From positions 186,001 to 250,000 of the forward strand of contig JAHDSF010000006.1 in assembly GCA_018432935.1 (NCBI GenBank): 64,000 nt of DNA, in the 5' to 3' direction. A program made the translations under genes and the position numbers. Positions 30,658 to 33,571 of the stretch are shown here, in pieces; the stretch's first letter is position 1, and each line of letters begins with the position of its first letter. This DNA is from Rhodospirillales bacterium. Its GTDB lineage: Bacteria > Pseudomonadota > Alphaproteobacteria > Rhodospirillales > Shumkoniaceae. The notes beneath the pieces are model-generated. The model did not search any database. It had not been told where the DNA came from and saw only the letters and a program-made list of their open reading frames with translations.

Positions 30658-31344
30658 ATGCGCGAAATCACCGACGCCCCCTCGGCGAACCACGATGCGC
30701 GGTCCGCGGCAATCGACATGCTGGTGCTGCATTACACGGGCATGGAGACCGCCTGTGCGGCGATCGACCGGCTGCGCGACCCCGCGTCGAAAGTGAGCGC
30801 TCATTACGTTGTCGGCGAGGACGGCACGGTGCTCCGTCTGGTTGCCGAGGAGCGCCGCGCCTGGCACGCGGGAGTTTCGTACTGGCGGGGCAACCGGGAC
30901 ATCAATGCGCGCTCGCTTGGCATCGAGATCGTCAACCCGGGCCACGAATTCGGGTATCGGCCGTTCCCCCCGGCGCAGATGGCGGCGGTCGTCGAGTTGA
31001 GCCTCGATCTGGTGCGACGCTACGGCATCCCCGCTTGGAATGTGGTCGGCCATGCCGACATCGCGCCGCGGCGCAAAAGCGACCCGGGCGAGTTGTTCGA
31101 ATGGGCGCTGCTTGCCCGATGCGGGGTCGGCCTGTGGGCGTCGCAAGCGGCGGTCGCCGGTTGCGGCGGCACAATGGATGTTGCCGGCGCCGCCGGCCTG
31201 CTGTCGGAAATCGGCTACGAGACCGATGATCTGCACGCCACCCTGACCGCATTCCAACGTCGTTTCCGGCCCGGGCTGGTCGACGGCAGGCTGGATTCCG
31301 CCACTGCGGACCTGCTGCGCGCGGTGCGCGGACTCTACCCTTGA
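30658..31344 (+). CDS. N-acetylmuramoyl-L-alanine amidase (AmiD-like)
   Basis: This is a 228-residue zinc amidase of the Amidase_2 type, followed by a C-terminal peptidoglycan-binding-like helix region (about 180-228). Zinc ligand candidates are H25 (VLHYTG), H132 (VVGHADIAP) and D142 (SDPG). Others of the family have SAHYVV and GHADIAPxRKxDPG, both seen here. No signal peptide is evident, so it is cytoplasmic or the start is further upstream; cytosolic members recycle anhydro-muropeptides (AmpD-like). ATG 30658 has no clear ribosome-binding site. Its stop codon lies within the rnpB promoter. Confidence 0.85.
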   Translation: MREITDAPSANHDARSAAIDMLVLHYTGMETACAAIDRLRDPASKVSAHYVVGEDGTVLRLVAEERRAWHAGVSYWRGNRDINARSLGIEIVNPGHEFGYRPFPPAQMAAVVELSLDLVRRYGIPAWNVVGHADIAPRRKSDPGELFEWALLARCGVGLWASQAAVAGCGGTMDVAGAAGLLSEIGYETDDLHATLTAFQRRFRPGLVDGRLDSATADLLRAVRGLYP

Positions 31345-31373: not shown

Positions 31374-31756
<383 letters not shown>

Positions 31757-32006
31757 TTATTAAAGTTTTACTTGTCTGCACCAGTATGCTCGCGCCGTTC
31801 CCGTCATCCAACCCGTCCGGCAGGCTGTTGGTCGCCGGATCGGATTTCTTGGCAGTCGTCAGAAGAACATAAGTAGAACACAAGTCTTGGGAAGAGAGGT
31901 GCGGAATCCACTCTACAACATATTGAGATCAACCTTCGTCGATACACAATAGATGGATTTCGAGGTGCGCGCTCCCATTCGGGAGTCCCTGTAAACCAAA
32001 GTAAAA

Positions 32007-32062
32007 TCCCAGTCGCTCCCATTGACTCCCATCTAGGCCCATGCTATCCCAATAAGGCCCCA
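32007..32062. promoter_or_regulatory. MraZ-box array, six repeats with 10-bp spacing
   Basis: Boxes of TCCCA or GCCCA (TGGGA/C on the other strand) start at 32007, 32017, 32027, 32037, 32047 and 32057, exactly one DNA turn apart with 5-bp gaps; the last reads GCCCC. Bacterial MraZ binds TGGGN-type boxes spaced by 5 bp to control its own operon. Three or four boxes are usual; six is long. It overlaps the promoter of the dcw operon. Confidence 0.85.
32022..32050 (+). promoter_or_regulatory. Promoter of the dcw operon
   Basis: TTGACT (32022-32027), a 17-bp spacer and TATCCC (32045-32050, extended GCTATCCC) form the likely promoter, with transcription from about 32057 and a 60-nt leader to mraZ. 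The elements lie within the MraZ boxes, so MraZ binding should block polymerase. Confidence 0.6.
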
Positions 32063-32120: not shown

Positions 32121-32588
32121 ATGGCGCTGCTAATCGGCAGATTCGTCAACAGGATCGACAAGAAGGGCCGGGTCTCCGTGCCCAAAAGCTTTCGTGACGC
32201 CGTCGAGAACCAGGAGTTTTCGGGCATCTACGTATTCCCGTCGTACAAGAATCCGAGCATCGAGGCGTGCGGCGAGGTCGAGATGACCCGCATCAGCAGC
32301 AGCCTCAGCGACAAACCGCTGTATTCCGACGAGCACGACGATCTCGCCACCGTCATTCTCGGCAACGCCCATCCTCTGTCGTTCGATCCCGAAGGCCGCG
32401 TCGTCCTGCCCAAGGACCTTCTGACCTACGCCGAGATCGGCGAGCAGGCGCTGTTCGTCGGTGGCGGCCACCGCCCCACCTTCCGGATCTGGAATCCCGA
32501 CGTCTTCGCCGCGCACAGTGCCGCCGCGCTCGGCCGTCTGCGCAACACCAAGGCGACCTTGCCCCTGCGGCAGGAGGTATCGGCATGA
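32121..32588 (+). CDS. mraZ: Transcriptional regulator MraZ
   Basis: This 155-residue DNA-binding protein has two AbrB/SpoVT-like swapped-hairpin domains, each with the family's D-x-x-G-R-V motif (DKKGRVSVP near residue 14; DPEGRVVLP near 92). MraZ proteins form rings that bind TGGG boxes at their own promoter and repress the dcw operon. A six-box array lies upstream. The start ATG 32121 follows a GGCGGCGAGGGCGGG stretch. It overlaps rsmH by 4 nt. Confidence 0.95.
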
Positions 32589-33571
32589 ACGCCGCCGTCC
32601 TGCCCCACGTGCCCGTCCTGCTGCGCGAGGTGCTGGCCGCCCTCGAGCCGCGTGGCGACGCCGTCTACGTCGACGGAACGTTCGGCGCCGGCGGCTACGC
32701 GCGCGCCCTGCTCGAGGCGGCACCGTGCCGTGTCGTCGGCATCGACCGCGACCCCGACGCGGTGGCCGGTGCCCAGGCAATGTGCCGCGAATTCCCAGGG
32801 CGTCTGACGGTGGCGCAGGGGCGCTTCGGCGACATGGGCGAGGTGCTGTCCGGCGCCGAAAGGGCCGACGGGGTGGCGCTGGACCTCGGCGTCTCCTCGA
32901 TGCAGATCGACCGTGCCGAGCGCGGCTTCTCGTTCCGCGAAGACGGGCCGCTGGACATGCGTATGGAGGCGGACGGCGCGACCGCCGCCGATCTCGTCAA
33001 CCGCCTGCCTGAATCCGAACTGGCCGACATCATTCACGGCTATGGCGAAGAGCGCGCGGCCCGCCGCATCGCCCGCGCCATCGTTGCCGCCCGCCGTGCC
33101 GCGCCGTTCACCCGCACGGCGCAACTCGCCGACGTCGTGCGCCGCGTCGTGCCGCGCTCGCGCGACGGCATCGATCCCGCCACCCGCACTTTTCAGGCCC
33201 TGCGGATCCGCGTCAACGACGAGTTGGGCGAGCTGGATCGCGGCCTGCGCGCGGCCGAGGCTGTGTTGAAGCCGGGCGGGCGGCTGGCGGTGGTGTCCTT
33301 CCACTCGCTCGAGGATCGGCGGGTCAAGACTTTCCTGCGGATTCGTTCGGGCGAGGAGGCGCGTCCGACCCGTCACCTCCCGCAGGCCCGCTCACGCGGC
33401 CCCGAGCCGACGTTTCGCATCATCAGGCGTGGCACCGTCACACCCGGCGATGAAGAAATGAGGCATAATCCGAGAGCACGCTCGGCGCGCCTGCGCTGGG
33501 CGGAGCGTACCGAGGCTCCGGCGTGGGTCGAAGCCGACGCGACGAGAGGGGGAGCAGAATGCTCTGGCTGA
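32585..33571 (+). CDS. rsmH: 16S rRNA (cytosine(1402)-N4)-methyltransferase
   Basis: This 328-residue S-adenosylmethionine-dependent enzyme methylates N4 of C1402 in the ribosomal decoding centre. The SAM-binding motif [11 protein letters not shown] is near residue 30, and [23 protein letters not shown] near 98 is a family hallmark. [15 protein letters not shown] near 205 is the conserved catalytic region. ATG 32585 overlaps the mraZ stop. It ends 12 nt after the start codon of ftsL, an overlap typical of this gene pair. Confidence 0.96.

Follow-up and report, generated by a model that had tools for sequence, protein, structure and literature searches.

MraZ is encoded at the head of an operon that ranks among the most conserved in bacteria, and members of its family form ring oligomers that bind DNA. 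Its operator in Escherichia coli, at PmraZ, was reportedly described by Eraso et al. 2014. The subject of the present analysis is a row of short boxes upstream of mraZ in a 64-kb stretch of alphaproteobacterial DNA, called the window below. Two further sites resemble this row according to passages of the papers that are cited here and below by PMC number: a Burkholderia cenocepacia fragment bound by MraZ carries repeats with a 10-bp period, as in the window (PMC7761207), and the Mollicute site likewise consists of direct repeats in the mraZ promoter, being in M. genitalium the single chromosomal site of a repressor (PMC8475190, PMC5138195). In M. genitalium it is the dcw genes that MraZ represses, and the paper that says so also calls E. 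coli MraZ an autorepressor (PMC8475190).

The window belongs to a draft genome of 5.05 Mb in 59 contigs. Its mraZ (32121-32588, + strand, 155 aa) encodes the presumed regulator and opens the dcw operon; next comes rsmH/mraW (32585-33571, + strand; PF01795, E 1.3e-100), which is the gene order expected of the family. The protein matches Pfam PF02381 with 43.9 bits (cut-off 23), over residues 79-134 only, and is thereby a member of the family; an alignment with E. coli MraZ (125 columns, residues 6-129) shows 23% identity, its MraZ relatives, which indicate the class of the genome, include those of Magnetospirillum and Dongia, and the solved MraZ chains resemble it weakly (best E 3.2e-4). Directly upstream of the dcw promoter lies an RNase P RNA (RF00010, 298.8 bits; 31377-31756, + strand), flanked by a gene for N-acetylmuramoyl-L-alanine amidase (30658-31344) and by mraZ; it was the only match in a search for known RNA families, which found none in the mraZ leader itself.

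The row reads CCCA on the coding strand and thus TGGG on the other (- strand), and its first five members are intact KCCCA boxes whose steps, read directly from the sequence, are exactly 10 bp. Box 1 (slot -40, 32007-32011; TCCCA, i.e. TGGGA on the - strand) is an extra upstream box. Box 2 (slot A, or -30, 32017-32021; TCCCA) abuts on its upstream side a -35 element, TTGACT (32022-32027, + strand), which lies between slots A and B and whose sixth letter is the first T of box 3 (slot B, 32027-32031; TCCCA). Boxes 3 and 4 (slot C, 32037-32041; GCCCA) stand in the 17-bp spacer, and box 5 (slot D, 32047-32051; TCCCA) overlaps the -10 element TATCCC (32045-32050, + strand), the last four letters of which belong to it, so that TTGACT-N17-TATCCC runs through the array. 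At the sixth position (slot E, 32057-32062, - strand) the letters are GCCCCA, that is, GCCCC followed by A: three of the four CCCA letters are in register, and the box is intact only if an 11-bp step is allowed. The first-pass annotation had seen six boxes in perfect 10-bp register, which holds for five of them and fails for the sixth (GCCCC, not GCCCA); it had also placed the promoter elements within the boxes, and both are indeed inside the array. Direct TGGG repeats at 10-bp steps upstream of mraZ, the mark of an MraZ operator, are therefore present, five intact and one degenerate.

The array is practically unique in its genome. Its five-box core, with at most two mismatches, occurs at two overlapping places in the 64-kb window and nowhere in 100 shuffles of it, and four KCCCA boxes spaced by N5 are found in the whole 5.05 Mb at the array only (two overlapping places; reversed control 0). 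A looser pattern of three CCCA boxes finds the array and one GC-rich place, C47:162402, which is the sole candidate for a further MraZ target in the genome. No single-strand hairpin signal was seen in the array region (z -0.44).

mraZ is present in 53 of 60 relatives (the window's genome counted) and in 319 of 385 genomes of the class, from which we analysed 197 upstream regions (52 of the 53 relatives and 145 from the class list); 11 loci from a scan of named genomes, of which nine have at least three exact boxes in register, were left out of the 197 against double counting. With a core defined as three boxes plus TGNTAT and a threshold of 15 of 17 letters, 177 of the 197 pass and form the alignable set, while 20 fall below, and six of 20 further, deliberately divergent alphaproteobacteria failed the same core test. 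Since these genomes are related, counts across upstream regions are not independent. The periodicity can be seen without any anchoring: distances between CCCA words in the 197 regions number 467 at 10 bp, none at 9 and seven at 11, with further peaks at 20, 30 and 40 bp, and no comparable peaks appear for TGGG on the same strand or in shuffled sequence. There is also a second series at 21, 31, 41, 51 and 61 bp, which reflects a box far upstream, separated from slot A by two turns of the helix and by a slot that is usually degenerate, and which may represent a second MraZ contact upstream.

Such a row of C-rich words may also be read as a template-strand G-quadruplex controlling the promoter, the row being conserved for that purpose, in the manner reported for the mraZ promoter of S. 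aureus. The motif (G3 N1-7)x4 does fit the template strand of the window and of 108 of the 177 relatives, and in S. aureus a G4 in the mraZ promoter region alters expression (PMC11796246). The boxes, however, give GGG words seven bases apart, so that any box array of this kind will score as a quadruplex motif; 69 of the 177 relatives are off motif; and a quadruplex needs neither a fixed spacing nor an A after CCC, yet CCC-CCC distances are 486 at 10 bp against 34 at 9 and 43 at 11, and the A is kept in 98-100% of slots B-D in the 177 (partly through anchoring). The array, moreover, vanishes along with mraZ (see below), and we consider this explanation very improbable.

In the 177 aligned regions, intact boxes occupy slot -50 in 14%, -40 in 10%, A in 41%, B in 88%, C in 90%, D in 93% and E in 50%, the off-register controls at each slot being 0% after rounding; the regions having been chosen through the B-C-D core, occupancy of B, C and D is partly so by construction, and that of A, E, -40 and -50 is not. 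An array of five slots, fused with the promoter, is the common plan of the class. If a box is graded as present when at least three of its four CCCA letters match, the number of slots ranges from two to nine, and 157 of the 177 have at least four in a row. The first-pass annotation had taken the number of boxes in the window to be unusual, which is not so for its lineage: 45 of the 177 have at least six graded boxes in a row, the window having six, so that six boxes are not exceptional, and 37 have an intact run of five or six (five in 34, six in three), the window having five. Exact KCCCA searches of the 385 class genomes found four boxes in 60 and five boxes (two overlapping places) in nine, the window's genome counted; the same-family genomes L017-L019 have four intact boxes in a row and five to six graded ones, and L016, with the nearest MraZ, has seven graded boxes. 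On these counts among relatives, the window's box number lies at the long end of the normal range.

What the additional boxes may do is a separate matter. One proposal, in line with the first-pass annotation, which suggested that they could hold more of an MraZ ring or a larger assembly, is that they recruit a larger MraZ assembly, either two adjacent rings or an opened, spread ring, and so give steeper control. Box 1 is intact in the window, long graded runs are as frequent as just described, and the far box often stands 21 rather than 20 bp from A, two turns off, as a separate second contact might. The flanking slots nevertheless vary freely among relatives while B-D are fixed, and we regard a larger assembly as unlikely. 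Nor do A and E compensate for each other so as to keep four boxes, their occupancies being unassociated (Fisher p 0.40 graded, 0.65 intact); near-constant B-D slots together with independent A and E slots (p 0.40) are more easily understood as a core with optional additions than as parts of one larger complex of fixed size. It is also conceivable that slots -40 and -50, and with them the upstream letters of the 21-bp series, are owned not by MraZ but by a different regulator, for instance CtrA: a CtrA motif is reported upstream of S. meliloti mraZ (PMC3616915), TTAA precedes the -50 CCCA in 16 relatives, and TTAA-N7-TTAA is found in eight of the 177 against 1.0 in shuffled sequence. Eight of 177 full CtrA-like sites is few, though, and no TTAA stands beside box 1 of the window, which leaves this proposal a rather improbable one, somewhat more so than the larger assembly.

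We place the promoter at 32022-32050 because it is conserved across the class, in its -35 sequence and in the columns of its -10 element. As a sigma-70 hexamer TATCCC is poor, and a generic promoter scan did not list the TTGACT/TATCCC pair, proposing 31923-31950 instead. TTGAC, which is outside the anchor used to align the 177 relatives, has a full match in 136 of them, the spacer to the -10 element being 17 bp in 114 and 18 bp in 22, and transcription is predicted to start at about 32057-32062, at the sixth box. The distance from slot D to the mraZ start varies from 16 to 340 bp among the 177 (median 100; 73 in the window), so that the element keeps its place relative to the promoter, not relative to the start codon. 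One could then suppose that the row is nothing more than a strong promoter whose tracts are in phase with the helix, MraZ acting elsewhere or never, and the strong conservation of TTGAC and TAT, as well as the alternating A/T-rich stretches upstream, would be in keeping with this. But slots A, E, -40 and -50 are outside the hexamers and still read CCCA in register, and in the 22 relatives with an 18-bp spacer the -35 element shifts by one base while the boxes do not move. Together with what is seen where mraZ has been lost, this makes a promoter without an operator the least credible of the explanations considered here.

That evidence comes from 30 genomes missed by one or both of two MraZ queries (P0001, P0002), in one of which (G598) PF02381 was nevertheless matched, and in 29 of which rsmH was found. 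There were 30 rsmH loci: three with too little upstream DNA, four with an MraZ frame (called by a profile from 89 MraZ sequences) and 23 without. None of these 23 upstream regions reaches 15 of 17 core letters (their best scores are 9-13, against 9-12 for single shuffles), compared with 177 of the 197 that have mraZ, which links the array to the gene. Where a divergent MraZ precedes rsmH, at the four loci just named, the core scores only 10-13 of 17, so a divergent MraZ accompanies a changed or missing array; in two of them, L337 and L338 (family f43), CCC still recurs at 10-bp steps and the fourth letter is no longer A, possibly an altered box specificity. Family f100 is instructive in this respect. 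Its mraZ-bearing members L217 and L316 have box B in register, whereas the mraZ-less L322, L323 and L325 keep TTGAC and part of the -10 region and have lost the in-register box B, the pattern to be expected of boxes that are there for MraZ and a TTGAC that is there for sigma, and contrary to what phased promoter tracts alone would predict. We read the arrays of these three loci, from their sequence, as relic operators; the same scan found no relic promoter of this kind in their mraZ-less kin L321, L331 and L335. As a separate observation, one genome of 900 kb (G126, locus L163) has an MraZ match with an internal TAG and no array upstream.

Taken together, an array unique in its genome and adjacent to mraZ, its conservation across the class and its loss with mraZ support the initial suggestion that an MraZ operator covers the dcw promoter. 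We think, with good though not full confidence, that the row is the autoregulatory MraZ operator of the alphaproteobacterial dcw operon; binding, ring occupancy, repression and the start site are here predictions made from sequence. The TGGG(A) direct repeats, being 10 bp apart, share one helical face; they begin just upstream of the -35 element and reach about as far as the predicted transcription start, and the ring-forming, AbrB-type MraZ, product of the first gene, would grip three to four neighbouring boxes. A grip of three or four boxes at once is suggested by the three near-fixed slots, by the 157 of 177 promoters noted above and by descriptions of MraZ rings. Since the array spans the -35 element, the spacer, the -10 element and the probable start, repression by blocking RNA polymerase is likely: bound MraZ would exclude the polymerase from the same bases, and the outcome would be negative feedback on all division and cell-wall genes of the operon. 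Box 1 and the degenerate slot E, the extra boxes here, probably add overlapping registers for one ring, not a larger ring, and such alternative registers would raise the apparent affinity. More speculatively, operator and core promoter may have evolved fused, with the array flipped and the -10 letters shared, and six- or seven-slot arrays may combine a four-box core with a second contact about 21 bp upstream; we offer this combined scenario as a doubtful one, only slightly less so than the larger assembly.

A class-wide operator that shares the letters of the -10 element predicts that MraZ and RNA polymerase simply compete for the same site, and the array offers an exact target for tests in model species. 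The natural series of box numbers, and the losses of mraZ with decayed boxes, also provide a handle on how a ring binds to a linear row.

The literature searched, which covered few subscription papers, contains no description of an alphaproteobacterial MraZ operator or of its flipped layout. For Rhodobacter sphaeroides, one upstream start of the dcw genes is described 268 nt before mraZ, with the UpsM leader, in passages that mention no MraZ boxes (PMC5089854). Array-like promoters at -287 to -344 from mraZ were observed in family f53 (L301-L303), and they are only compatible with such a long leader. In R. sphaeroides, both NtrX and CenR are reported to act upstream of mraZ's start, at that end of the gene (PMC7240162, PMC9275681), so that promoters of this kind may integrate several inputs.

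How the locus stands beside the described operators can be judged from a set of 51 non-alphaproteobacterial upstream regions (E. coli and 50 genomes of the same phylum), counting graded runs in which two or more boxes are full. GTGG runs occur in 47 of the 51 (two boxes in three, three in 12, four in 26 and five in six) and CCAC runs in two, whereas the 197 alphaproteobacterial regions have CCCA runs in 185 and a TGGG run in one. The view, also taken from the first reading, that MraZ operators usually have three or four boxes is therefore apt for the non-alphaproteobacteria (12 plus 26 of 51); and the operator of the Alphaproteobacteria is on the other strand. The sites named at the outset differ from the window in their own ways: the Mollicute repeats, AAAGTG[T/G], have other box letters and nothing of the alphaproteobacterial geometry (PMC8475190, PMC5138195), and B. 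cenocepacia has four repeats, downstream of the -10 element and overlapping the start site (PMC7761207). With E. coli the window shares TGGG direct repeats at 10-bp steps beside the promoter of an mraZ that is the first dcw gene. In E. coli K-12, read directly, the coding strand carries three exact TGGG boxes, spaced by 10 bp and located downstream of TAAACT; the window departs from this layout, having CCCA on the coding strand, five intact boxes and one more, running through the -35 and -10 elements, so that relative to E. coli the operator has changed not only its strand but also its side of the -10 element. This flip of strand, together with the fusion to the promoter, is a lineage-wide variant of the known MraZ operator, and it is this geometry, more than the number of boxes, that was the less to be expected.
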